Shown here: positions 43,127 through 55,528 of the stretch, one piece after another
How positions within the stretch are numbered: position 1 is the stretch's first letter
How the letters are laid out: each line of letters opens with the position of its first letter
DNA from: Diaphorobacter sp. HDW4B
GTDB taxonomy: Bacteria; Pseudomonadota; Gammaproteobacteria; Burkholderiales; Burkholderiaceae_C
NCBI RefSeq assembly: GCF_011305535.1
Contig: NZ_CP049905.1
Location: 2,387,501-2,451,500, forward strand
Length of the DNA: 64,000 bases
Direction: 5' to 3'
Position numbers and translations under genes: made by a program
Notes under the pieces: generated by a model
What the model saw: the letters and a program-made list of their open reading frames with translations, nothing else
Databases searched by the model: none
Told to the model about the DNA's origin: nothing

Positions 43127-44482
43127 ATGCGCCAGCCCATCATGCAAGTCCTTCCATATCTGACTGGACCTGCCAGCATGAAGCATCTTCCGCACAGCGA
43201 CGACCGGACAACGAGCAGCCCCATGCGAAGTGCGCGCACACCCTCGGGCGGTGCACTGACTCATGCGTGGGTGGCCAGTTGGGCCGCCAGCGCGCAGCCG
43301 GTCTGGGGCGACGATTTCCTGTTTCCCACCAATGTTCCGGGCCGATTGCACAACCAGACGGTGCGCCAGATGGCGCGCCTCAGCCTGGGTGGAAAGAGGC
43401 TGCGCATCGTGCTCTCCAACGTGCATGGAAAGACGCCGGTGTGTATCGGTCGCGCCACTGTCGCGCGCTCGGCGGATGACATCCGCGCGGTCACGTTCGG
43501 TGGTGAATCTGCGGGCACGATGCTTCCCGGCGCATCGTTGATCAGCGATCCGATCGACATGAAAACCGAGGCGCTTTCGCTCCTCACCATCAGCCTTTTT
43601 CTGCCGGAACCCACGCCGCTCACCACCTTCCATTGGGATGGCCGCCAGACGGGCTGGATCGTGTCCGGCGATCAAACCCAAGCACCCCAACTCGACATGA
43701 TTCCGCCAGCGATGAGCACCACGGCAAGGTCGCTGCTTGCAGGCATTCATGTCGAACGCATCGGCACGCCGCGCAGCGTGGTGGTGATCGGAGATTCAAT
43801 CACCGATGGCGCAACAGCCAGCCTCGACAAGGACACACGCTGGCCCGATTTTCTGGCCACGCGGTTGACCCCGCATGACGTTGCCGTCGTCAACGCAGGC
43901 ATCTCGGGGGCACGTCTGCTGTCGGATGGAATGGGCGTGAATGCGCTCGCCAGACTGGATCGCGATGTGCTGTCGCAACCGGGCCTGCAAGCGGCCGTCG
44001 TGGCACTCGGCATCAACGACATCGCCTGGCCCGGAACCGCGTTTGCGCGCGATGCATCACTGCCCACCCTCGCATCGCTGACGGCGGGCTACCGCCAGTT
44101 GATCGCGCAGTTGCATGCTCACGGCGTGCGCGTGATCGGAGCCACGCTCGCGCCGTTCGAAGGCGCGTTGCCCGACTCGCCGCTCGATGATTATTTTCAG
44201 CCTGAGAAAGACGCGCTGCGCCACCAACTCAACGACTGGATCAGGCACAGCCATGCGTTCGATGCGGTGGTGGATTTCGATGCGGTGCTGCGCGATCCAG
44301 CACATCCCGCGCGCATGCTGGCGGCATACGACAGCGGCGACCATCTGCATCCGGGCGATGAAGGTTTGCGCTCCATGGCCGATGCTGTCGACCTGCGCGC
44401 GCTGTCGCCCGAACTGGTGCCCGAAGCGATGCCCGAACTGAGACCTGAAGCCGTCAGTCCACCTTCGCGCCCGACGCCTTGA
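43127..44482 (+). CDS. SGNH/GDSL-family hydrolase
   Basis: A 451-residue esterase or acyl hydrolase. Block I is VVVIGDSITDGA with the catalytic Ser224, block III contains VVALGINDIAW, and block V is SGDHLHPGDEG with Asp405 and His408. The N-terminal 200 residues (THAWVASWAASAQPVWG; NQTVRQMARLSLGGKRLRIV) form the sandwich domain seen in this two-domain subfamily. The start may be 43127, 43178 or 43223. No conventional signal peptide is seen. The 3' end overlaps the convergent Bug gene by 29 bases. Confidence 0.87.
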   Translation: MRQPIMQVLPYLTGPASMKHLPHSDDRTTSSPMRSARTPSGGALTHAWVASWAASAQPVWGDDFLFPTNVPGRLHNQTVRQMARLSLGGKRLRIVLSNVHGKTPVCIGRATVARSADDIRAVTFGGESAGTMLPGASLISDPIDMKTEALSLLTISLFLPEPTPLTTFHWDGRQTGWIVSGDQTQAPQLDMIPPAMSTTARSLLAGIHVERIGTPRSVVVIGDSITDGATASLDKDTRWPDFLATRLTPHDVAVVNAGISGARLLSDGMGVNALARLDRDVLSQPGLQAAVVALGINDIAWPGTAFARDASLPTLASLTAGYRQLIAQLHAHGVRVIGATLAPFEGALPDSPLDDYFQPEKDALRHQLNDWIRHSHAFDAVVDFDAVLRDPAHPARMLAAYDSGDHLHPGDEGLRSMADAVDLRALSPELVPEAMPELRPEAVSPPSRPTP

Positions 44483-45461
44483 CCACAGGAGCCCAGCTCG
44501 CGACTTCGTGCTTGATGAACTCGCTGTACTGCTGCGGCGTGTTCTTCTCCGACACCGCGCCCAGCTTGGCGTAGGCCTCTTTCACCTCGGGCTTGTCGAA
44601 GGCCGCATTCACGGCCTTGTTGATCTTGTCGATCGCCTCCTTGGGCGTGCCCTTGGGGGCGATCAGACCGAACCACGAACTCACGTCGAAAGGCGCGACG
44701 CCGCTCTCCTCCATGGTCGGAATGTCGGGCGCGGAAGGCGAGCGCGTCTTGGTCGTCACCGCCAACGCTTTCAGCTTGCCGCCCTGCACCTGTGGCCAGG
44801 CGGACGGCATGTTGTCGAACATGAACTGCACCTGTCCACCGATCAGATCGGTAAGTGCCGGCGCGCTGCCCTTGTAGGGCACATGCTGCGTTTTCAGGCC
44901 CGTGCGCACCTTGAACAGCTCACCGGCCATGTGGATGGACGTGCCGCTGCCGGACGAAGCGTATGCCGCCTTGTCGTTGTTGGCTCGCACCCACTCGATC
45001 AGCTCCTTCACGTTCTTGGCGGGAACGTTGTTGTTGACCACCAGAATGTTGGGCACTTTCGCGCCCAGCACCACAGCATCGAAGTCGCGATTGAGGTCGA
45101 ACTTCACGTTGGGATACAGCGTCTGGTTGATGGCGCTGGTGACCGCAACGCACAGCAGCGTGTAGCCGTCGGCGGGCGCGGCCATGACCTGATCCGTGGC
45201 GATGTTGCTGCCGCCACCGGGCTTGTTGTCCACCACGAAGGATTGGCCCAGCGCCTGCGTGAGCTCCTTGGCCAGAATGCGCGCCACCAGATCGGTGGTT
45301 CCGCCAGCGGAAAAGCCGACGACGATGCGCACCGGCTTGGCGGGATAGTCCGCCGCACGCGCGGCCGTGCCAAGGCCCAGCCCCAGCGAACCCAAAAGGC
45401 CGCCCGCAGCGATGGACGCTGCGGCGCGACGGCGACTCAGCCCCCGAGAACTCGAATGCAT
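44454..45461 (-). CDS. Bug/TctC-family periplasmic receptor
   Basis: A 335-residue receptor. A signal peptide with RRRAAASIAAGG ends near AARAADYPAKP. VRIVVGFSAGGTTDLVARIL, VVDNKPGGGSNIATDQV and ADGYTLLCVAVTSAINQTLY are typical. The start at 45461 follows AAGGAGACACGC. It is the third orphan Bug receptor in the window. Here no CoA-transferase or dehydrogenase accompanies it; the neighbours are an SGNH hydrolase and an M20 peptidase. Confidence 0.92.
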   Translation of the reverse strand: MHSSSRGLSRRRAAASIAAGGLLGSLGLGLGTAARAADYPAKPVRIVVGFSAGGTTDLVARILAKELTQALGQSFVVDNKPGGGSNIATDQVMAAPADGYTLLCVAVTSAINQTLYPNVKFDLNRDFDAVVLGAKVPNILVVNNNVPAKNVKELIEWVRANNDKAAYASSGSGTSIHMAGELFKVRTGLKTQHVPYKGSAPALTDLIGGQVQFMFDNMPSAWPQVQGGKLKALAVTTKTRSPSAPDIPTMEESGVAPFDVSSWFGLIAPKGTPKEAIDKINKAVNAAFDKPEVKEAYAKLGAVSEKNTPQQYSEFIKHEVASWAPVVKASGAKVD

Positions 45462-45602
45462 TGCGTGTCTCCTTGCCTGTAGTTTGTGCTGCGCTGCCGT
45501 TGCGATCACGGCAGCGCCTGCAAGCCACTATAGGACGAGACGTCGCGATTTCGATTTCGGGTTTGCCCCTGCGTGCCGGGGCATTTCAGACCGATCCGAG
45601 CC

Positions 45603-46880
45603 TTATTTGACCTTGCCCGCAGAGATGTCCTGAATCATCCGTGCGGTCAGATACAGGCGCGGCACGATGGTGTTGATCTGCACGTATTCGGCACTGTTCG
45701 AGTGCGCGCCGTAGCCCGACAATCCAAATCCCTCGATCACGCCGCCCTTGGCCTTGAGCGCCGCGAATGCCGCATCGGTGCCGCCGCCGGTGGCCTTGTC
45801 CATGACCTTCATGGGCAGTTGCAGTTCCTTCTCGTAGATGCCTTGGGCGTGCTTGGAAATCGCGCGGCCCGAGTCGTTGGCCTCGAGCGGCGGACGGCGC
45901 ACTTCGAACTTCAGTTCCACCTTGGAATCGGGCAGCAGCTTGTTTTTGACCTTCTCGTTCATCGCCGCTTCGAGCGCGGTGAAATCGGCCACCTTGAGTG
46001 CACGCGCATCGGCCTGGGCCGTCGCTTCGGCAGGCACCACATTGCGGTTGGAACCCGACTTGGACAGGGTCCAGTTGAGCTTCAGACCTTCTTCGGGCTT
46101 GGACGACAGATCCTTCATCTGCAGCACCTGATGCGACAGCTCGTACAGCGCGTTCACGCCATCTTCCGGCTTGGCACCCGCGTGCGAGGCCTTGCCCGTC
46201 ACCTTCAGATACGCCGCGCCAATGCCGCTGGTCGCAAGGCGCAGGCTGCCATCGGTGCCGCCGCCTTCGTACGAGAACACGGCATCCTGCTCCGCGCCCA
46301 GACGCACCATGGTGCTGCGCGCGGCGGGCGAGCTGATTTCCTCGTCGCTGTTCATCAGCACGGTGAGCGTGCCGTAGTCTTCGTAGCCCAGCTTCTTGAT
46401 CAAATCGACCGCGTGAATGATGAGCGCCACGCCCTGCTTGTCGTCCGCAATGCCGAGGCCATAAGCCTTGTCGCCATCGACGCGGAACGGCTGGTCCTTG
46501 ATCATGCCCTTGAGGTACACCGTGTCCATGTGCGCAATCATCATGATGCGGCTCTTGCCCTTGCCCTTGAACTCGGCATGCACCATGGGGCCGACCTGCT
46601 CGGGCGTGTCGTCAAGACGGTAAATGTCGGTGGCAGGCAGGATCTCGACCTTGCCACCGAGCGCGCGCAACTTGCCCGCGACGTACTCGGCGATCTGCTT
46701 GGTGCCTTCCAGATCTTTGCTGCCGGACTCGATATGCACGAGCTCCTTCAGCGTATCGAGATAAGCCTGCTGCTGCTTTTGCGCAAGCTCGTGGAGTTCG
46801 GCCTGCGGTGCGGCCTGTGCGGCCAACGCGGCGGTTGCGATGGCCAGAGCGGTGAAAGAGGTGGAGAAGCGGCTGCGCAT
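45603..46880 (-). CDS. M20-family metallopeptidase (carboxypeptidase G2-like), exported
   Basis: A 425-residue zinc peptidase. The signal peptide ends LAAQAAPQ. Zinc ligands are recognisable: H in MIAHMDTVY, D in GLGIADDKQG, the catalytic and ligand pair in NSDEEISS, and a C-terminal H in GYGAHSNSAEYV. The family removes C-terminal glutamate from N-acyl or folate-type substrates. It lies 82 bases after the ABC permease gene on the same strand, so it could belong to the same operon and release an amino acid from the imported compound (inference). Confidence 0.9.
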   Translation of the reverse strand: MRSRFSTSFTALAIATAALAAQAAPQAELHELAQKQQQAYLDTLKELVHIESGSKDLEGTKQIAEYVAGKLRALGGKVEILPATDIYRLDDTPEQVGPMVHAEFKGKGKSRIMMIAHMDTVYLKGMIKDQPFRVDGDKAYGLGIADDKQGVALIIHAVDLIKKLGYEDYGTLTVLMNSDEEISSPAARSTMVRLGAEQDAVFSYEGGGTDGSLRLATSGIGAAYLKVTGKASHAGAKPEDGVNALYELSHQVLQMKDLSSKPEEGLKLNWTLSKSGSNRNVVPAEATAQADARALKVADFTALEAAMNEKVKNKLLPDSKVELKFEVRRPPLEANDSGRAISKHAQGIYEKELQLPMKVMDKATGGGTDAAFAALKAKGGVIEGFGLSGYGAHSNSAEYVQINTIVPRLYLTARMIQDISAGKVK

Positions 46881-46962: not shown

Positions 46963-47880
46963 CTAACGACGCGCCTCCGCGCCGTACCAGGGGAACAGCC
47001 GGTGCAGCAGCCAGGCAAACAGTTGATCGGTCAGAAACCCGATGGCTCCAAGGTAGATGAGACCGACGAACATGATGTCCACGCGGAACACCAGATGCGC
47101 GAACGAGATCAGGTAGCCAAGGCCTTTTTCCGCGCCCACGAGTTCGGCGGCGACCACCACCACGAAGGCCACGGACGTGGCATGCCGCAGGCCCGCGAAC
47201 ACGAACGGCAGCGCAGCGGGCAACGCCACCTGCAGCACGGTGGACGTGCGACTCGCGCCCAGCGATGCGGCCGAACGCAGATACACCGGCGGCAGATCGC
47301 GCACACCGATGAAGGTGTTGAGCCACACCGGAAAGAAAGTGCCCCAGGCGATCAGCATGACCTTGGAGACATCGCCCAGGCCGAACCACACAATGGCCAG
47401 CGGCACGATGGCGATGGCGGGAATCGCGCGCAAGCCGTGCACCACCGGATCGCTCAACTGCCGCAGCCATGGGATGCGCCCGGTCAGCACGCCAAAGACA
47501 ATGCCGACGCTCGAACCCAGCAAAAACCCCCAAAGCGCACGCAGCAGGCTCGCGCCCACATGCGGCCAGATTTCGCCGGTGCCCCATGTCATGTCGGCAA
47601 ACACTTGGGCAATGTGCGATGGAGGTGGAAACATCTTGGTGTTGACACCCGGAACCACGCGCGGTGCCAGCTCCCACACCAGCAGAAACAACAGCACGCC
47701 GGCAATGCCGAGCAGCAATTGCGAGCGCAGTGCAATGCGCCGCCGGGCCTGTTCGCGCGCGATGAACGCCTGTTCGATATGCCGCGTGGTGCGAGGCAAC
47801 GCGGCATCGGTCTTGTGCTCGCTCTTGCCAGAGGTGGTGGTCAACGACGCGGAATGTACGGCCGTGCTCAAGGTATTCAT
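46963..47880 (-). CDS. ABC transporter permease (SsuC/TauC/NrtB-like)
   Basis: A 305-residue inner-membrane permease with a long hydrophilic N-terminus (about 1-55) and about six transmembrane helices. The EAA-type loop reads YLRSAASLGASRTSTVLQVA, then LPAALPFVFAGLRHATSVAF. It belongs to the sulfonate/nitrate/taurine/thiamine-precursor import family. Its start overlaps the ATPase gene's stop as ATGA. It serves the two binding proteins encoded upstream in the same operon. Confidence 0.93.
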   Translation of the reverse strand: MNTLSTAVHSASLTTTSGKSEHKTDAALPRTTRHIEQAFIAREQARRRIALRSQLLLGIAGVLLFLLVWELAPRVVPGVNTKMFPPPSHIAQVFADMTWGTGEIWPHVGASLLRALWGFLLGSSVGIVFGVLTGRIPWLRQLSDPVVHGLRAIPAIAIVPLAIVWFGLGDVSKVMLIAWGTFFPVWLNTFIGVRDLPPVYLRSAASLGASRTSTVLQVALPAALPFVFAGLRHATSVAFVVVVAAELVGAEKGLGYLISFAHLVFRVDIMFVGLIYLGAIGFLTDQLFAWLLHRLFPWYGAEARR

Positions 47881-48662
47881 GCTGCGTTCACTTCCTGACC
47901 CACATGGGCAAACACTTCGCTGATGCGCGCGTAAGCTGCACCAAAGGCGGCATCGCCGCGATGGCGCGGATACGGCAAATCGATCTCGACGATCTCTTCG
48001 ATTCGTCCAGGATGCGGGCTCATCACCACCACCTTCTGCGCGAGATAGACCGCCTCCTCGATGTTGTGCGTGATGAAGAACACCGACAGCGAGAGCTTCT
48101 GCCAGATCCGCAGCAACTCGTCCTGCAAGGTCGCGCGCGTGAGTGCATCGATGGCGGCGAATGGCTCATCCATCAACAGCAGTTGCGGCTCTGTCGCCAA
48201 TGCACGCGCCACGGCGACGCGCTGACGCATGCCGCCCGAAAGCTCGAATGGATAGCGGTCCGCTGCATGCGTGAGGCCGATGAGATCGAGCAACTGCTGC
48301 GCCTTCTCGTGCGTTTCCTTGCGATTCGCGCCTTGCTGGCGCAAGCCGAATTCGACGTTCTTGCGCGCCGTCAGCCATGGGAACAGTGCGTACTCCTGAA
48401 AGACGACGCCGCGATCCGGGCCCGGTCCTTGCACCGGCTGACCGTGCGCCTGCACCGTGCCCTGCGTGGGCTTGAGGAAGCCCGCAATCATGTTCAGGAG
48501 CGTGGTCTTGCCGCAGCCGCTCGGGCCGATGGCGCAGACGAATTCACCCGCGCGAATGTCCAGACTGACGTCGCGCAGCGCCCAATGGATGTCGCCCGAT
48601 GCGGAAGCATAGAGCTGGGAAACGTCGCGAATCCGTGCGGCGATTTGCGGATCATTGGTCAT
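47877..48662 (-). CDS. ABC transporter ATP-binding protein (SsuB/TauB-like)
   Basis: A 261-residue ATPase. Walker A GPSGCGKTT is at 46-54, the Q-loop is in VVFQEYALFPWLTARKNVEF, the signature is LSGGMRQRVAVARALA, Walker B is LLLMDEPFAAID, and the switch histidine is in FFITHNIEEAVYLA. It energises uptake through the adjacent permease. It starts five bases after the binding-protein gene and overlaps the permease gene. The start at 48662 is chosen because preceding codons are not part of the fold. Confidence 0.95.
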   Translation of the reverse strand: MTNDPQIAARIRDVSQLYASASGDIHWALRDVSLDIRAGEFVCAIGPSGCGKTTLLNMIAGFLKPTQGTVQAHGQPVQGPGPDRGVVFQEYALFPWLTARKNVEFGLRQQGANRKETHEKAQQLLDLIGLTHAADRYPFELSGGMRQRVAVARALATEPQLLLMDEPFAAIDALTRATLQDELLRIWQKLSLSVFFITHNIEEAVYLAQKVVVMSPHPGRIEEIVEIDLPYPRHRGDAAFGAAYARISEVFAHVGQEVNAA

Positions 48663-48667
48663 GGAGT

Positions 48668-49681
48668 TCACCTGCTCAATGTGACGCGATCCGCTGCAGC
48701 AGCGCGCAACGCGTCGGGGTAGATCAGTCCGCGATAGAGCTGGCGCAGATCCTGCGCAGGCCGTTGAGCCAAGCCCGATTCGACGGCCCATTCACCGTTG
48801 AGCACGAGGTCGTCGATCAGACGATCATCGAGTCGCACCCCCAGTTTCACGTTCGAGAGCCCTTCGCGCGTGGTCTCCACGGTCGATTTGGTGCGCTGCG
48901 CCACCAGTGCAATCGCCTCGTCGGTCTGCGCGCGATAGAACGCTTCGGCGTCGAGCAATGCCCGCACTGCGCCCTCCACCAGCTTGGGCGATTTGTGCAC
49001 TACCTCTTCGTTGGCGGTGAGCACGTAGTGGCTCACGAACACACGCTCCAAACCGTCCGCAGGCAGTTGAACGACCTTGCCTGCGCTTTGCTCGATCGCC
49101 TGCTGCCCGGCATCCCAGCCCCAGGCAAAGGCGTCGATGCCGCCTTGCGTGATCGCGGTGACCGCATCGGGTCCGCGCAGATTCACGACCGTCACGTCCT
49201 TGAGCGTGAGTCCATGCAGCGAGAGATAGCGACTCAGAAAGTAGTGACCGCTGGAGCCCAGCGTGGTCGCAATGCGTTTGCCCTTGAGCTGCGCAGGCGT
49301 GTGGATGCCGCGATCCGTTCGCGCCACCACCACCATGCCGCTGGACAGTCGCGTGAATTCCGCCACGATGTACGAGCGCACGCCATTGGCGCCCGCCAGG
49401 CCCACCACGCTGTCGGTGGACGTGGCGAACTGTGCCTTGCCCGCGACGGCGGCATCAAAGGCCAGACGGCCCGAGGTGAACGGCAAGGTGCTGGCTTCGA
49501 TGCCATGGTTTTTCCAGAGGTTCTTGCTGGAGACCAGATAGGGAATCGCCCAGCTGAAGCCTTGGCTTTCGGCGATGACGACCTTCTGCGCAGCCGCATG
49601 GGCACTGGTGCCGGCAAGCGAAAGCGCAGAGAGCCCCAGCCCGAGATTGAATTGGCGACGGTTGAGTGGTTGAAACGGCAT
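48668..49681 (-). CDS. SsuA/NrtA-type periplasmic binding protein, paralogue B
   Basis: A 337-residue binding protein with a RRQF-type twin-arginine-like signal ending SAHAAAQ. FTSGRLAFDAAVAGKAQFAT, TSTDSVVGLAG, LGSSGHYFLSRYLSLHGLT and GGIDAFAWGWDA match the aliphatic sulfonate/nitrate receptor group. It is clearly paralogous to the protein at 53868-54869 (shared SGRL, TDSVV, GHYF, LHGLT, DVTV and NLR blocks). It precedes the ATPase gene by five bases, so it is the receptor most directly linked to the transporter. Confidence 0.92.
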   Translation of the reverse strand: MPFQPLNRRQFNLGLGLSALSLAGTSAHAAAQKVVIAESQGFSWAIPYLVSSKNLWKNHGIEASTLPFTSGRLAFDAAVAGKAQFATSTDSVVGLAGANGVRSYIVAEFTRLSSGMVVVARTDRGIHTPAQLKGKRIATTLGSSGHYFLSRYLSLHGLTLKDVTVVNLRGPDAVTAITQGGIDAFAWGWDAGQQAIEQSAGKVVQLPADGLERVFVSHYVLTANEEVVHKSPKLVEGAVRALLDAEAFYRAQTDEAIALVAQRTKSTVETTREGLSNVKLGVRLDDRLIDDLVLNGEWAVESGLAQRPAQDLRQLYRGLIYPDALRAAAADRVTLSR

Positions 49682-49728
49682 GAGCGTCTCCGACAGATGA
49701 GGTGAAAAAAAGCGGCAGGCCCAAGGAC

Positions 49729-50937
49729 TCAGCCATAGCCGAACGGATCGGGAATGTCGCCGGTCAACAGCCAGCGCCCCACGGCCTTCTTGCGATGGTC
49801 GAGTGGGTCATGCAGCGTGTGCACGCGCACGTTGCGCCAGAAGCGGTCAAAGCCATGCTTGCGCGCAGTGGACCGAGCACCGACCAGCTCGAAGATTTCG
49901 GAGGTCACATGCAAGGCCACGCGACCGGCATGCACGCGCGCTGCGGCGATGTCGAGCGACAGTGCGCCGCGTTGTTCGGCGGTGAGCGAATCGCCCGCAT
50001 CCCAAGCACGCTGAAAGTGCTCCAACGCGCGATCGGCAAGCGCTTCGGCGGCCTGAAGCTGAATCCACTGATCGCCCGCCTGCAATTGCATGACGGGGTC
50101 ATCGACGGCACGCTCGACCCCCGCCATTGGCCAGGGCTGGACATGCTCGCGCATATGCTCCACCGACGACAGCAACGCACCGCGCGCGTTGCCCAGATAG
50201 ATCTCGGTGAGCACCAATTGCCCGATGAGATTGCGCAGTGTGGCGCGCGGACTGCTGGCCACGCCAGGTGGGCCAAGCACCTCGGCACGCTCGATGAGCA
50301 CGTGATCGAACGCGACGGTGCCACTGTCGGTCTGGCGCTGGCCCATGTTGTCCCAGTCGTCGCGCACGGTGATGCCTGCGCGGTGGGTGGGAATCACCGC
50401 GAACCGGCGATCCGTCGGGGCCGTGCCGACCGTGAAGGAGACGTTGAGCACATCCGAATCGCGAGCCCCCGAACAGAATGCCTTGAGGCCATTGAGCAGG
50501 TACCCGTCGCCCGATTGCTGCACACTGAGCCGCGTGTCGCGCGCATTGACGGCATTGCCCCAGAACCAGCGTTCATCGACGGTCGCACGCAGGTACTTGG
50601 CTTTCTGGACATCCGATCCGAACAACAGAACAGAGGCCACCTGCAGATGCTGAAACCCGAAGAGGTGGGCCAGCGAGCTGTCCACTTCGGCAAGGCTGCG
50701 CACCAGCCGCAGAACGTCGGGCCACGCGAGTTGCTGACCGCCCCATTGGCGCGGCACGGCCAGCGTCAACAAGCCACTGTCACGCAGCAAGCGGCGTTCG
50801 GCCAAGGCCGTTCCACCCGCCGCATCGCGCGCCACGGCAGTGAGGGCGAGTTCGCGCTTGAGTCCGTCCATCGCGGCAAGCGCGACATCCAGTTCCTTGG
50901 AACGCGAGGTCACAGAGATGCCATCTGATGGGTTCAC
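49729..50937 (-). CDS. DszC/SfnB-type flavin-dependent monooxygenase, paralogue A
   Basis: A 402-residue protein with acyl-CoA-dehydrogenase fold, of the FMNH2-dependent sulfur-oxygenase branch. Diagnostic residues are VDSSLAHLFGFQHLQVASVL, RWFWGNAVNARDTRL, DNMGQRQTDSGTVAFD, LTEIYLGNARGAL and the C-terminal RNVRVHTLHDPLDHRKKAVG. Such enzymes oxidise organosulfur compounds using reduced flavin. The start is GTG 50937, six bases after GAGGAG. It is 19 bases downstream of its paralogue. No reductase is in the operon; the flavin reductases at 729 and 61086 are possible partners. Confidence 0.88.
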   Translation of the reverse strand: MNPSDGISVTSRSKELDVALAAMDGLKRELALTAVARDAAGGTALAERRLLRDSGLLTLAVPRQWGGQQLAWPDVLRLVRSLAEVDSSLAHLFGFQHLQVASVLLFGSDVQKAKYLRATVDERWFWGNAVNARDTRLSVQQSGDGYLLNGLKAFCSGARDSDVLNVSFTVGTAPTDRRFAVIPTHRAGITVRDDWDNMGQRQTDSGTVAFDHVLIERAEVLGPPGVASSPRATLRNLIGQLVLTEIYLGNARGALLSSVEHMREHVQPWPMAGVERAVDDPVMQLQAGDQWIQLQAAEALADRALEHFQRAWDAGDSLTAEQRGALSLDIAAARVHAGRVALHVTSEIFELVGARSTARKHGFDRFWRNVRVHTLHDPLDHRKKAVGRWLLTGDIPDPFGYG

Positions 50938-50956
50938 AACATGCTCCTCACGCGCT

Positions 50957-52171
50957 TCAACTGAAACCGGAAGGCTGTGGAGCCTCGCCGCGCAACAGCC
51001 ATTTGCCCAACGCCTGGCGCTTGAGATCCAGCGGATCATGCAAGCTGTGCACGCGGATGTTTCGCCAGTAGCGATCCAGTGCGAGCCCGCCAGCGGTGGC
51101 GTTGGCCCCCATCTGATCAAACAGACCACTGGTGATCGCGAGCCCCGCCTGCGCCGAGGCCACACGCGCTTCTGCCATCTCCAGCGCCACGGCTGCGCGC
51201 TCCGGTGCGGTCAACGCATCGCCGCGCGCCCATGCGTGCTGCAGCGAAAGCGCCGCGTGGTCTGCAATACGGCGCGCGCCGCGGTAGGCAATCCAGTGCT
51301 CTCCGAACCGCAGTTGAATCGTGCTGTCCTGCGTTGCCGAATCGGCTCCGGTTCCGGGCCATGGACGGGCTCGCTGCGTGAGGTGTTCGCGCGCAGCCTC
51401 CAGCGCTCCTTCCGTGTTGCCCAGATAGATTTCGGTGAGGATGGCCTGCGCCAGGCACGAGCGCAGCGAATGCCGTGGCAGACGCGGCAGCGGCGGCTGA
51501 TCGGTCGGCCAACCCAGACGATCAGCAGGCTCCACGGGCGTGCCCTCGAACTGCACGCTTCCGCTGTCGGTCTGACGCTGACCGAAGGCGTCCCAGTCGC
51601 CGCCGATGCGCACGCCGTGGCGGTCTGCAGGCACCGCCAGAAACAGGCGCGCTCCATCGATGGCCGGATGCGGCACGTTGACGATCAAGCCTTCCGCATC
51701 CACCGAGCCCGAGCAGAAGAAACGCGGACCGACCAACTGGTGTCCGCTCGCCGTGTTTTCGAACAGCAAGCGCACATCACGGTCATTCGTCGCATTGCCC
51801 CAGAACCAGCGTTTTTCAACAGTCTTCGTGAGTAGGCTGTGCTGCTGCTCGGGCGTTCCGAACAGCAGCACGGTCGCCACTTGCAGATGTTGAAACGCAA
51901 ACAGATGCGCAATGGAACTGTCCGCAGCAGCCAGTCTGCGAACGATGCGCAGGATCAGCGGCCATACCTCGCCTTGCCCGCCAAATTCCTTGGGAACGAG
52001 CAAGGTGAGCAGGCCGCTTTCACGCAACAGGCGGCGCTGCTCCAGCGCGGTGCCGCCTTGACGGTCGCGTTGTGCTGCGGTGGCGGCGAGCTGCGCGGCG
52101 ACGGATTCGACCACCTCGGTCCATGCGCCGAAGTCGCGGTTGAAAAGCAGATCGCTGGACGGAACACTCAT
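50957..52171 (-). CDS. DszC/SfnB-type flavin-dependent monooxygenase, paralogue B
   Basis: A 404-residue paralogue of the next gene, with matching blocks AADSSIAHLFAFQHLQVATV, RWFWGNATNDRDVRL, DAFGQRQTDSGSVQFEG, ILTEIYLGNTEGAL and RNIRVHSLHDPLDLKRQALG. The substrate loops (ENTASGHQLVGPRFFCSGSV) differ from the other copy, suggesting different substrates or a two-step oxidation. The start ATG overlaps the amidohydrolase stop as ATGA. Reduced flavin must come from elsewhere. Confidence 0.88.
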   Translation of the reverse strand: MSVPSSDLLFNRDFGAWTEVVESVAAQLAATAAQRDRQGGTALEQRRLLRESGLLTLLVPKEFGGQGEVWPLILRIVRRLAAADSSIAHLFAFQHLQVATVLLFGTPEQQHSLLTKTVEKRWFWGNATNDRDVRLLFENTASGHQLVGPRFFCSGSVDAEGLIVNVPHPAIDGARLFLAVPADRHGVRIGGDWDAFGQRQTDSGSVQFEGTPVEPADRLGWPTDQPPLPRLPRHSLRSCLAQAILTEIYLGNTEGALEAAREHLTQRARPWPGTGADSATQDSTIQLRFGEHWIAYRGARRIADHAALSLQHAWARGDALTAPERAAVALEMAEARVASAQAGLAITSGLFDQMGANATAGGLALDRYWRNIRVHSLHDPLDLKRQALGKWLLRGEAPQPSGFS

Positions 52172-53871
52172 GCGCCCACTCCTTGCGCAAAGTCCTGCAA
52201 GTCACCGTGCACCGGCTTGCCCCCCACCAGCGTGAGCAGCGCGTGGATGTTTGGCAGCGCCTCGTCATCCACCGTCAATGGATCGTCGGACAGCACGGCG
52301 ATGTCGGCGAACTTGCCCGGCGTGAGCGTTCCCTTGATGTCTTCTTCGAAGCTCAACCACGCCCCATGCGAGGTGATCATTCGCAGCGCATCGATGCGGG
52401 AGAGACGTTGATCGGGGCCGATGACTTGTCCACTCGTGCGTTCACGCCGCGTGACGCAGGTCCACACCGCATAGAAAGGGTTCACCGGAATGTTGTCGCT
52501 GCCAGCGGAGACCGCAAAGCCGGCCTCGATCAGCGAACGCACGGGCATGTAGTGGTTGCCGTCGTCCGGCTCGTTCAGATGCGGTGCGCCGTTCTTCCAG
52601 ATCGTGTAGAGCGGATTCGTCGTGATGAACAGCCCCAGACGGCGAATGCGTGCGTAGTCTGCCGGCTCCACATGGCCGATATGCTCGATCACCCAGCGCC
52701 GTCCCGCGAGCGGGTAGCGCGCGTCGATGCGCTCGTAGACATCCAGCACATCGGACAAGCGCGTGTTGATCACCGAATGCACCCGCAGATCGTGCTCTGC
52801 CGCGTGCTGCGCATAGCGCTCGTAGTCTTGCAGCGGGTTGTTCCACTCCACGAATCCGGCCCAGCCCGTGTTGGGCAGGGCCCTGCGCGATGCAGCCGCC
52901 ACATCGGGCGCGCCGTTCATGCCGAGGTTGATGCCGCCGATGCGCAGAAAATCATCGCCCAGCCCCTGCCCACGGGCATGCGGCAGCGCGTCGCGCATGG
53001 TGATGCGCGCTTCTTCCGGTGTGGACCAAGTGGGGCTCACGCACAGACGCGAACGCATGCTCAGCGCTTGCGCCTGCCACAGCGCGCGATACACGGCGAG
53101 CGTTTGCGGTGCGGAGCCGTGACCCTCGTAGATGCTGGTGGTGCCGAACGCGTGGTAGATCGGCAGCGAGCGGCGCAAGCCTTCGAGTCGATCATCGAAC
53201 GAAAACGCGGGCACGTTGCTCAGCAGATCGAACTCCAGCATCGGGCGCTTGTTGTGCTCGACGATGATGCCCGTGGGCTCGCCCTTCGCATCGAATTCGA
53301 TCTCGATGCCGCGGCACGTCGGGCAGGTGCCGGGCAGGATGTTGTTGCGCGCCAGCGCCAGCGAATTGAGCGCGCTGAATCCGGGCGGCACGCCCCAGTT
53401 TCCGAACAGGCCGGGGATGTAGACGGGATGATCGGGCGCAGCCTGATCCAGCTCCCAACGCGTGGGCATGCGGCCTTCCGCCAGGTTGGACGGGCCGCCG
53501 AAGTAGTACGGCCCCTGCCCCACCGGCATGGTGATGATCCATTCGCCCTTGGCGCGATGTGCGGCTTCGCGGCGCACGATGTCGAGCACGTCGTTCACTG
53601 TCTTGGCATGCGCGAGCGTGGGCCGCAAGGTCTTGAGCCCCTCGCGCTCCATGTGCGCATGTGCGTCGATGAAGCCCGGCGTGACGGTGCGTCCGGCAAG
53701 GTCGATCACCTTGGTGGAAGCGTCGGCCAGCGCGCGAATCTGCGCATCGTCGCCCACCGCCACGATGCGGCCACGCGCAATCGCCAACGCGGTGGCATGC
53801 GGCCGCGCAGCATCCATGGTGATGATGTTGCCGCGCACCAGCACGAGTTCGGGAACGGTCACGACGCTCAT
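52168..53871 (-). CDS. YtcJ-type amidohydrolase (amidohydrolase 3)
   Basis: A 567-residue metal-dependent hydrolase. The metal-binding HxH is H71/H73 in GFIDAHAHME, later ligands lie in EHIGHVEP, and the aspartate is in AGSDNIPVNP. The C-terminal GTLTPGKFADIAVLSDDPL closes the beta-sandwich. These enzymes hydrolyse amide or similar bonds of unknown natural compounds. The CPTC motif (GTCPTCRG, about 180) inside the barrel is not a standard ligand. Both ends overlap neighbouring genes by ATGA, so it is coupled to the binding protein and the monooxygenases. Confidence 0.9.
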   Translation of the reverse strand: MSVVTVPELVLVRGNIITMDAARPHATALAIARGRIVAVGDDAQIRALADASTKVIDLAGRTVTPGFIDAHAHMEREGLKTLRPTLAHAKTVNDVLDIVRREAAHRAKGEWIITMPVGQGPYYFGGPSNLAEGRMPTRWELDQAAPDHPVYIPGLFGNWGVPPGFSALNSLALARNNILPGTCPTCRGIEIEFDAKGEPTGIIVEHNKRPMLEFDLLSNVPAFSFDDRLEGLRRSLPIYHAFGTTSIYEGHGSAPQTLAVYRALWQAQALSMRSRLCVSPTWSTPEEARITMRDALPHARGQGLGDDFLRIGGINLGMNGAPDVAAASRRALPNTGWAGFVEWNNPLQDYERYAQHAAEHDLRVHSVINTRLSDVLDVYERIDARYPLAGRRWVIEHIGHVEPADYARIRRLGLFITTNPLYTIWKNGAPHLNEPDDGNHYMPVRSLIEAGFAVSAGSDNIPVNPFYAVWTCVTRRERTSGQVIGPDQRLSRIDALRMITSHGAWLSFEEDIKGTLTPGKFADIAVLSDDPLTVDDEALPNIHALLTLVGGKPVHGDLQDFAQGVGA

Positions 53872-54869
53872 GCCAGCTTCACCCGGTCTGCGGCCACGGC
53901 GCTCAGCGCGCGCGTGTCGATGGCCTGGCGATAGAGCTGACGCAGCTCTGCCGGGTTGGCCTGTGCAAGCTTCTCGGAGATCGCCCACTGGCCGCCAAGC
54001 ACCAGATCGTCGAGCAGTCGCGGCGCAAGCTGCACGCGCGTCGCATTGCGCGACAAGCCATTGCGGGACGATTCGATCGAGCCACGCGTGCGTGCCGCCA
54101 GAATCTGTGCGCCCTTTTCCGCATCGGCGTTCAGCACCTGCTCGGCACCGATCAGCGCGCGTACGGCGGCCTGCAGCACCTCGGGTTTGCTGTCTGCGGT
54201 CTGCTCGTTGGTGATGAGCACGAAGTGGCTTTGGAAAACCTTGTCGATGCCCGCAGAAGAAAGCACATGCACGTTGCCCTGGCCTTCGACCTTGGCCGCG
54301 TCTTCCGCTGCCCACCAGTCCCATGCAAAGGCGTCGATGCTGCCCTGCGCAAGCGCGGAAATCATCTCCGGCGGGCGCAGGTTCAGCACCGTCACATCCT
54401 TGGTCGTGAGGCCGTGCAAACCGAGGTAGCGGTTCACGAAGTAATGTCCCGCCGTGCCGAACATGGTGGCAAATTTCTTGCCGCGCAAATCCTGCGGCTG
54501 CACCACACCCTTGTCGCGGCGCGCGGCCACCAGCATCTGCGTGGACGAGTTGGCGAACTCGGCGAACACCTTGACCTTCTGGCCTTGCAGCGCGGCCAGT
54601 GCGACCACGCTGTCGGTGGTGGTGGCAAAGTCGGCCTTGCCAGCCAGCGCGGCTTCGGCCGAGAGACGACCCGATGTGAAGCCCAGACTGGTGACGTTCA
54701 GGCCTTCCTTGGCCCAGAGCTTTTCTGCGTCGGCCACAAAGGGAACCGCCCAACTGTGGCCTTCACTCGCGGCAAAGACCGCCGGAATCTGCGCGCGCTG
54801 TTGGGCCCACGCCCCGGAAGATGCAAGGGCCAGAGCCGATCCGGCGGCAAGAAAGTCGCGACGCTGCAT
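53868..54869 (-). CDS. SsuA/NrtA-type periplasmic binding protein, paralogue A
   Basis: A 333-residue binding protein, first gene of the operon. The signal MQRRDFLAAGSALALA resembles a Tat signal, ending SGAWAQQ. LGFTSGRLSAEAALAGKADF, ATTTDSVVALAAL, FGTAGHYFVNRYLGLHGLTT and QGSIDAFAWDWWAAEDA parallel the second receptor. Two receptors with one permease/ATPase suggest two related ligands. A perfect palindrome lies ten bases upstream of the start, where no good ribosome-binding site is visible. Confidence 0.92.
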   Translation of the reverse strand: MQRRDFLAAGSALALASSGAWAQQRAQIPAVFAASEGHSWAVPFVADAEKLWAKEGLNVTSLGFTSGRLSAEAALAGKADFATTTDSVVALAALQGQKVKVFAEFANSSTQMLVAARRDKGVVQPQDLRGKKFATMFGTAGHYFVNRYLGLHGLTTKDVTVLNLRPPEMISALAQGSIDAFAWDWWAAEDAAKVEGQGNVHVLSSAGIDKVFQSHFVLITNEQTADSKPEVLQAAVRALIGAEQVLNADAEKGAQILAARTRGSIESSRNGLSRNATRVQLAPRLLDDLVLGGQWAISEKLAQANPAELRQLYRQAIDTRALSAVAADRVKLA

Positions 54870-54878
54870 TTGGAAACA

Positions 54879-54895
54879 CTTTCAAAATTTGAAAG
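54879..54895. promoter_or_regulatory. Perfect palindrome upstream of the organosulfur-type operon
   Basis: CTTTCAAA-A-TTTGAAAG, a perfect 17-base palindrome, ends ten bases before the first start codon of the operon. It shares its half-site with a second copy at 54954, so a dimeric regulator site is likely; a leader hairpin is the alternative. Confidence 0.6.
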
Positions 54896-54953
54896 CGGCC
54901 CAGTCTAGAAAACGCGGTCCATTCAGTCCAAGATGGATTCCGGATATGGATAG

Positions 54954-54972
54954 TTTCAAAACGCGTTTGAAA
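54954..54972. promoter_or_regulatory. Second TTTCAAA/TTTGAAA operator
   Basis: TTTCAAA (54954-54960) and TTTGAAA (54966-54972) flank ACGCG. Same half-site as the palindrome at 54879-54895, centres 76 bases apart. It lies in the region between the operon and the divergent glycosylase gene. Confidence 0.55.
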
Positions 54973-55041
54973 TGCAGGTATATGCGCGGGCGTGGACAAT
55001 GCAACGTTCCACGTCTTCACACGATTCATCCACTCAACACC

Positions 55042-55470
55042 GTGCGTCTCTGGTCTCTTCACCCCCGTTATCTCGATGCCAAAGGGCTGGTCGCGCTGTG
55101 GCGCGAGGCGTTGCTGGCGCAGGCTGTGCTGCGCGGCGAAACCAAGGGGTATCGCAACCATCCGCAGCTCGATCGGTTCAAGGTGCTGGCCGATCCGGCT
55201 GCTGCGCTCGCGCGTTATCTGCAGGACGTGCATGCCGAAGCGACGCGGCGTGCTTATCGTTTTGACGGCAGCAAGATTCACGCAGCCGATGCGAATGCAG
55301 TCATCGCGGTGGCGAGCGGGCAGTTGGAATACGAGTGGGAGCATCTGCGCAAAAAATTGCAGACGCGCAGCCCTGCGGACTTTGAAAAGATCGCACTGCT
55401 GAGCGGGCCTGAGCTGCATCCAATGTTCCGCCTTCAGCCGGGGCCGATTGCGGATTGGGAACGGCCCTAA
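55042..55470 (+). CDS. Pyrimidine dimer DNA glycosylase/endonuclease V family protein
   Basis: A 142-residue protein. The N-terminal VRLWSLHPRYLDAKGLVALW and RNHPQLDRFK are the hallmark of the T4 endonuclease V-like (Pyr_excise) family. HPMFRLQPGPIADWE ends it. T4 denV itself uses an N-terminal threonine; here the Thr before VRLW is encoded just upstream. The start is GTG 55042. The role would be repair of UV-induced dimers, although close homologues are of uncertain activity. It is divergent from the operon at 46963-54869. Confidence 0.82.
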   Translation: MRLWSLHPRYLDAKGLVALWREALLAQAVLRGETKGYRNHPQLDRFKVLADPAAALARYLQDVHAEATRRAYRFDGSKIHAADANAVIAVASGQLEYEWEHLRKKLQTRSPADFEKIALLSGPELHPMFRLQPGPIADWERP

Positions 55471-55473
55471 AAC

Positions 55474-55528
55474 GGTTCTGAAATGGTTCTGAAATGGTTC
55501 TGAAATGGTTCTGAAATGGTCCTGAAAA
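55474..55528 (+). repeat. Five 11-base tandem repeats
   Basis: GGTTCTGAAAT occurs four times in tandem, then a diverged fifth copy GGTCCTGAAAA. The array begins four bases after the glycosylase stop codon and runs into the terminator of the convergent MFS gene. Each unit carries a TGA. Confidence 0.95.

Follow-up and report, generated by a model that had tools for sequence, protein, structure and literature searches.

Why would a bacterium group two binding proteins, two flavin oxygenases, and an amidohydrolase around a single ATP-binding cassette (ABC) importer? The question is raised by a 64,000-nucleotide stretch of the Diaphorobacter sp. HDW4B genome (the window, to which all positions below refer), where seven minus-strand genes are packed into positions 46963-54869 in the order receptor A, amidohydrolase, oxygenase B, oxygenase A, receptor B, ATPase, and permease. 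The block looks like one operon, and the reading we favor, at a probability of roughly 0.6, is that of a sulfur-scavenging operon formed from merged cassettes, in which two receptor-oxygenase pairs share a hydrolase and an importer. Its features are:

53868-54869, minus strand: receptor A, NMT1/SsuA-like binding protein with a twin-arginine-like N-terminus and no cysteine
52168-53871, minus strand: amidohydrolase (Amidohydro_3), 567 residues
50957-52171, minus strand: oxygenase B (monooxygenase B), probable DszC/MsuC/SfnB-class flavin monooxygenase
49729-50937, minus strand: oxygenase A (monooxygenase A), probable DszC/MsuC/SfnB-class flavin monooxygenase, GTG start
48668-49681, minus strand: receptor B, NMT1/SsuA-like binding protein with a twin-arginine-like N-terminus and no cysteine
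47877-48662, minus strand: ABC importer ATPase (Pfam ABC_tran)
46963-47880, minus strand: ABC importer permease (Pfam BPD_transp_1)
54902-54931, minus strand: low-confidence candidate promoter 5' of receptor A, picked by eye (TTGGAC, 18 bases, TAGACT)

Coordinates and Pfam labels bear out the first-pass annotation, which had described seven nearly gapless genes in this order with three ATGA junctions: from receptor A to the permease the spacing is -4, -4, 19, 47, 5, and -4 bases, the three overlaps of the six junctions being receptor A/amidohydrolase, amidohydrolase/oxygenase B, and ATPase/permease. The Pfam domains are NMT1 in both receptors, Amidohydro_3, acyl-CoA-dehydrogenase-type domains in both oxygenases, ABC_tran, and BPD_transp_1. 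The receptors are 46% identical to each other, as are the oxygenases, so that the paralogous pairs reported earlier are real. A neighborhood check, proposed at the same time, found the block conserved: the seven-gene order occurs in three genomes, namely the host (6.2 Mb), Diaphorobacter caeni (L027), and isolate 18069 (L028). The record of isolate 18069 is titled Pantoea sp. 18069, probably in error, since its genome was sampled in the same family as that of D. caeni. Purifying selection acts on each of the seven genes: ratios of nonsynonymous to synonymous substitution (dN/dS) are 0.040-0.099 in the comparison with D. caeni and 0.062-0.165 in that with isolate 18069 (one receptor start in the input was one codon off); a decaying half of the operon, considered as a candidate explanation, has left no sign.

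Hydrolase-bearing loci are patchy in distribution, and the seven-gene block is rare. At E 1e-100 the amidohydrolase query was positive in 3 of 60 relatives, and in one of five congeners; at the order level (1e-90) it found 14 of 399 genomes, the 13 besides the host at 38-43% identity, and at the family level (1e-130) 3 of 399, the host being counted in each of these totals except that for congeners. Three of 249 genomes were positive in the family of isolate 18069; the Pandoraea family had 6 of 398, and Pandoraea itself 5 of 32. Eight plasmid records were recovered at 1e-60, three of which were examined. The order, family, 18069-family, Pandoraea-family, and receptor A searches scored the best three to five candidates per genome. 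The listing of relatives covered the best 80 of 171, six of which were examined (L027-L032), the other 74 being at most 34% identical.

Where the pairs came from is suggested by a comparison of 13 loci, the window included, with hydrolase identities of at least 52% (genes in the relatives were called by a custom script, and some starts are uncertain). Seven loci carry a cassette of oxygenase A, receptor B, ATPase, permease, and hydrolase: five in Pandoraea (L030, L031, L121, L122, and L123), one in G529 (L108), and one in Variovorax paradoxus VAI-C (L024). Herbaspirillum autotrophicum (L029) has instead the order ATPase, permease, receptor A, hydrolase, and oxygenase B, and loci in Azospirillum (L025) and Cupriavidus metallidurans (L026) have receptor, ATPase, permease, and hydrolase. 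In trees, receptor A groups with the Herbaspirillum receptor (support 97/98), receptor B with the receptors of the seven Variovorax, Pandoraea, and G529 loci (100/99), and the amidohydrolase with that of Herbaspirillum (100/99). Constraints imposing in-place duplication were rejected for the receptor pair (p 3e-6) and for the oxygenase pair (p 1e-4), as was one placing the hydrolase with the other seven loci to the exclusion of Herbaspirillum (p 2.5e-4); these p values are generous, the constrained groups having been chosen after the first trees were viewed. Four paralogous ATPase or permease genes from L024 and L028, which belong to other importers, were left out of the trees, and L122 is in the trees and absent from the protein alignments (A1-A5).

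Because half-cassettes exist in relatives and the tree tests reject duplication in place for both pairs, the seven-gene operon seems to have arisen when two cassettes from one family merged, an interpretation added here to the earlier description. On the simplest account, a Herbaspirillum-type core (receptor A, hydrolase, and oxygenase B) appears to have been fused with a core of the Pandoraea type (oxygenase A and receptor B), the latter probably also supplying the ATPase and permease; the merger would have kept both receptors and both oxygenases, while one hydrolase and one importer were lost.

More distant amidohydrolases were rejected as members of the same system, since their gene context differs: at the seven loci with 37-44% identity (L032 and L109-L114), neither an oxygenase nor a receptor was matched at E 1e-8, and six of the seven have a TctC match. 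In L110, L111, and L114, amidohydrolases of about 41% identity adjoin the TctC-type receptor match in place of an ABC importer.

If two cassettes were combined, did the operon gain a second ligand? The first-pass annotation had proposed that one importer serves two ligands; a single importer with two receptors is indeed what is encoded, and the second ligand is weakly suggested by receptor residues that fit different pockets. The two receptor clades have fixed differences in 38 of 324 columns, and these fall at three of six equivalents of TauA contact positions (p 0.023), or at two of five (p 0.11) when Q30, which was mapped by eye, is omitted. That the operon handles one ligand, with redundant receptors and oxygenases of differing affinity or with oxygenases acting in series (sulfide to sulfoxide to sulfone or sulfonate), is a less probable alternative, though one to be taken seriously given how weak these pocket statistics are, that both pairs are retained under similar constraint in all three seven-gene genomes, and that only one hydrolase and one importer are left. 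It has to accommodate, however, the same 38 fixed differences, some of them at TauA-contact positions, and the eight cassettes with just one receptor and one oxygenase from these families; one of each can therefore suffice.

Both receptors exceed the gathering score of PF09084 (NMT1/THI5-like, 20.5), with 87.3 bits for receptor A and 77.9 for receptor B, and the closest solved structure by profile is TauA (75.6 bits). A predicted structure of receptor A (mean predicted local distance difference test score, pLDDT, 83.7) has TauA and SsuA as its best fold matches in Foldseek. Taurine contacts in TauA include E106 and D205, according to the excerpted text of PMC6906117. In an alignment with numbering mapped by hand, the equivalent receptor positions are M112 and F/Y216; with these contacts replaced, receptors A and B are unlikely to be taurine receptors. 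All 15 aligned receptor rows, the window counted, begin with an RR signal-like start, a putative signal. In the Dsz pathway, the desulfinase DszB has a binding-protein fold, which makes it conceivable that one receptor is such an enzyme, and DszB chains do appear at ranks 40, 41, and 46 among the 50 listed fold matches of receptor A. Cys27 of DszB is named in the title of a PDB structure; receptors A and B contain no cysteine, the only one in the 15 aligned rows lying inside the signal-like stretch of a single row, and the RR start is common to both receptors and to every aligned row. A DszB-type desulfinase among the receptors is thus contradicted by the missing catalytic cysteine, and we consider it extremely improbable.

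The oxygenases probably belong to the DszC/MsuC/SfnB class, with a probable sulfur function. By profile, their closest solved structures are MsuC (431.7 bits) and DszC (388.4 bits). After a check of the numbering, the active-site equivalents of DszC H92, N129, S163, H388, H391, and D392 are invariant in all 13 aligned oxygenases, while Y96 is replaced by F and H97 by Q; H92, N129, S163, H388, and D392 are taken here as residues important in DszC. The importance of His391 in DszC is noted in an excerpt of PMC11134501. In the host genome these two enzymes are the only strong SfnB-type matches (258 and 213 bits, the next at 110, and none above the cut-off). PMC13352529 describes the oxidation of dimethyl sulfide and its sulfoxide by oxygenases with the acyl-CoA-dehydrogenase fold, and its authors suggest that MsuC has other organosulfur compounds as preferred substrates.

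Oxygenases of this fold also include enzymes that oxidise carbon and nitrogen, and the operon's oxygenases have weak matches such as HsaA (54 bits). The operon could accordingly serve a sulfur-free route, in which the receptors would bind an N-heterocycle or amide, the amidohydrolase would open it, and the oxygenases would hydroxylate carbon or nitrogen, feeding nitrogen or carbon metabolism. ThiY binds formylaminopyrimidine, and the formylaminopyrimidine receptor 3ix1 is at rank 8 among the Foldseek matches, behind seven sulfonate-receptor chains; two of the four locus types had no sulfur gene seen nearby. We regard it as unlikely nonetheless, since the DszC and SfnB models give 213-334 bits on these oxygenases and the other listed models less than 57, MsuC and DszC are the nearest relatives among solved structures, and sulfur genes adjoin several of the relatives' loci.

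Those genes are as follows. The Variovorax locus has MsuE above its cut-off and an SfnB-like gene below its own, 6-8 kb away; the Azospirillum locus has an O-acetylhomoserine sulfhydrylase above cut-off, together with flavin adenine dinucleotide (FAD) and ferredoxin proteins; two of the five Pandoraea loci have a sulfur gene (Sulf_transp in the case of L030, serine acetyltransferase in that of L123); and isolate 18069 has an SsuA just above cut-off downstream (166.3 against 163.5 bits). In the host genome, away from the operon, SsuE is above cut-off (225 against 164 bits) and is clustered with SsuA-like and SsuD-like genes, both below their own cut-offs. In this Ssu-like cluster (L144 6363-11509; C1:1138-1144 kb), a cytochrome-c-like gene separates the SsuA-like gene from the SsuD-like one, and another gene weakly resembles SfnB.

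Fumarate-reductase-type FAD proteins were seen near SsuA-type importers at three loci (L025 5206-7187, L026 12072-13721, and L028 16660-17817), with a ferredoxin beside the Azospirillum one. In two of these cases the same amidohydrolase core is near, and another redox route perhaps replaces the oxygenase there.

Several results weigh against a merged sulfur-scavenging operon. As to the merger, a Herbaspirillum-type cassette was found at a single locus outside the seven-gene genomes, and the receptor A query was positive in 1 of 379 genomes, which is the Herbaspirillum genome itself. Oxygenase B joins the Herbaspirillum oxygenase with a support of just 58/74, and for the ATPase and permease the topology tests favor no particular descent. 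With one such locus and this low support, the receptor-oxygenase pairing depends mainly on the receptor tree. In the Azospirillum and Cupriavidus loci no DszC-type oxygenase was matched within 10 kb. As to sulfur, the receptors and oxygenases stay below four curated cut-offs: SsuA (TIGR01728, 163.5 bits) with 107.4 for receptor A and 103.5 for receptor B, TauA (304.25 bits) with 66.6 and 64.0, DszC (NF043015, 850 bits) with 334.1 and 297.6 for the two oxygenases, and SfnB (TIGR04022, 430.9 bits) with 258.6 and 213.1. These names therefore give a class and not a substrate, and the SsuA-type and DszC/SfnB labels of the first-pass annotation hold to that extent. The operon contains neither a flavin reductase nor a desulfinase. 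No sulfur gene was seen by eye in the Herbaspirillum flanks, the G529 flank gene that was scanned is not a sulfur gene, and the aminotransferase adjoining the Pandoraea L122 locus is below every cut-off. Lastly, the sulfur-gene neighbors are raw sightings within about 10 kb.

In the sulfur-scavenging operon that we infer, from its purpose and the pairing of receptors with oxygenases to the substrates and the order of hydrolysis and oxidation, two exported receptors would each bind their own organosulfur ligand and hand it over to the single permease-ATPase pair. Inside the cell, the one amidohydrolase would cleave a C-N bond that the two ligands share, oxygenase B would oxidise the sulfur of the compound captured by receptor A, and oxygenase A that of the compound captured by receptor B. 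No reductase of flavin mononucleotide (FMN) is encoded within the operon; reduced FMN (FMNH2) could come from an SsuE-type reductase encoded elsewhere, as is present in the host genome, and sulfite release could be performed by Ssu-type enzymes, likewise encoded elsewhere.

The amidohydrolase may open an amide- or ring-containing organosulfur compound, as the first-pass annotation proposed. It exceeds the gathering score of Amidohydro_3 (PF07969; 249 against 29.7 bits), and its best NCBIfam match is 52 bits, so that it matches no characterised subfamily in that collection; its best solved matches are uncharacterised proteins aligned to the N-terminal 100 residues. All 13 aligned rows have H71, H73, E249, H251, H397, and D459, the putative metal ligands being H71, H73, E249 or H251, H397, and D459. 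The predicted structure is poor (mean pLDDT 56.5) and unfit for judging the fold or placing the ligands.

The operon resembles several described systems in part. With the Ssu and Tau systems (SsuABC or TauABC with SsuDE or TauD) it shares the importer family, the SsuA/TauA receptor fold, and presumably an FMNH2-dependent oxygenase logic, SsuE being present in the host genome, but it has two receptors per importer and an amidohydrolase, its oxygenases have the acyl-CoA-dehydrogenase fold where Ssu uses the SsuD barrel, and the curated cut-offs for SsuC, TauC, and TauB, as for SsuA and TauA, are not reached. MsuC (methanesulfinate monooxygenase) and DszC (dibenzothiophene monooxygenase) are the nearest solved relatives of the oxygenases, with active-site equivalents kept; unlike the Dsz pathway, the operon lacks DszA, DszB, and DszD, and its oxygenases are far below the DszC equivalog cut-off and differ at Y96 and H97. 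With the SfnB family of sulfur acquisition oxidoreductases the operon shares the class and a probable sulfur role. The N-acetyltaurine system, in which the amidohydrolase NaaS goes together with a transporter and the substrate is an N-acylated organosulfur compound, resembles the operon in that combination and is not known to include an oxygenase pair. Where excerpts of the desulfurization literature mention an amidohydrolase, it acts after desulfurization and is not in an importer operon. The suspicion that this combination lies outside described pathways has held up, in that no description of it was found in the open-access literature.

A bolder proposal, which we hold tentatively and at somewhat less than even odds, is that the operon represents an undescribed sulfur route: after import, C-N-linked organosulfur compounds would be split by a metal-dependent amidohydrolase from an uncharacterised subfamily, and an MsuC/DszC-class enzyme would oxidise them. 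The receptor-oxygenase pairs would be interchangeable specificity cassettes on a constant hydrolase-importer core, and the merger would widen the diet of the cell. If the favored reading is right, DszC/MsuC/SfnB enzymes, for which the natural substrate is often uncertain, would gain a genetically defined substrate class, and the locus would be a natural experiment in the merging of uptake cassettes around one shared importer.

The surroundings of the block yielded few regulatory features. By eye, TTTCTAGACT is located 5' of receptor A in all three seven-gene loci. A promoter consensus scan of the region gave no promoter-like site and nothing above chance; a terminator scan gave six sites against 5.7 expected, all six intragenic, the two on the minus strand both within the permease gene. 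Two TTTCAAA/TTTGAAA palindromes noticed by eye at 54870-55050, 5' of receptor A, were discarded as regulatory candidates, being absent in D. caeni. An M20 peptidase (carboxypeptidase, 45603-46880) and a TctC receptor (44454-45509), which are 3' of the block in D. caeni as well, were rejected as operon members, both being unmatched in isolate 18069 and in the half-cassettes. Upstream of the operon, an 11-base tandem repeat, AAATGGTTCTG, occurs in 5.3 copies at 55470-55527, adjoining a major facilitator superfamily (MFS) gene.

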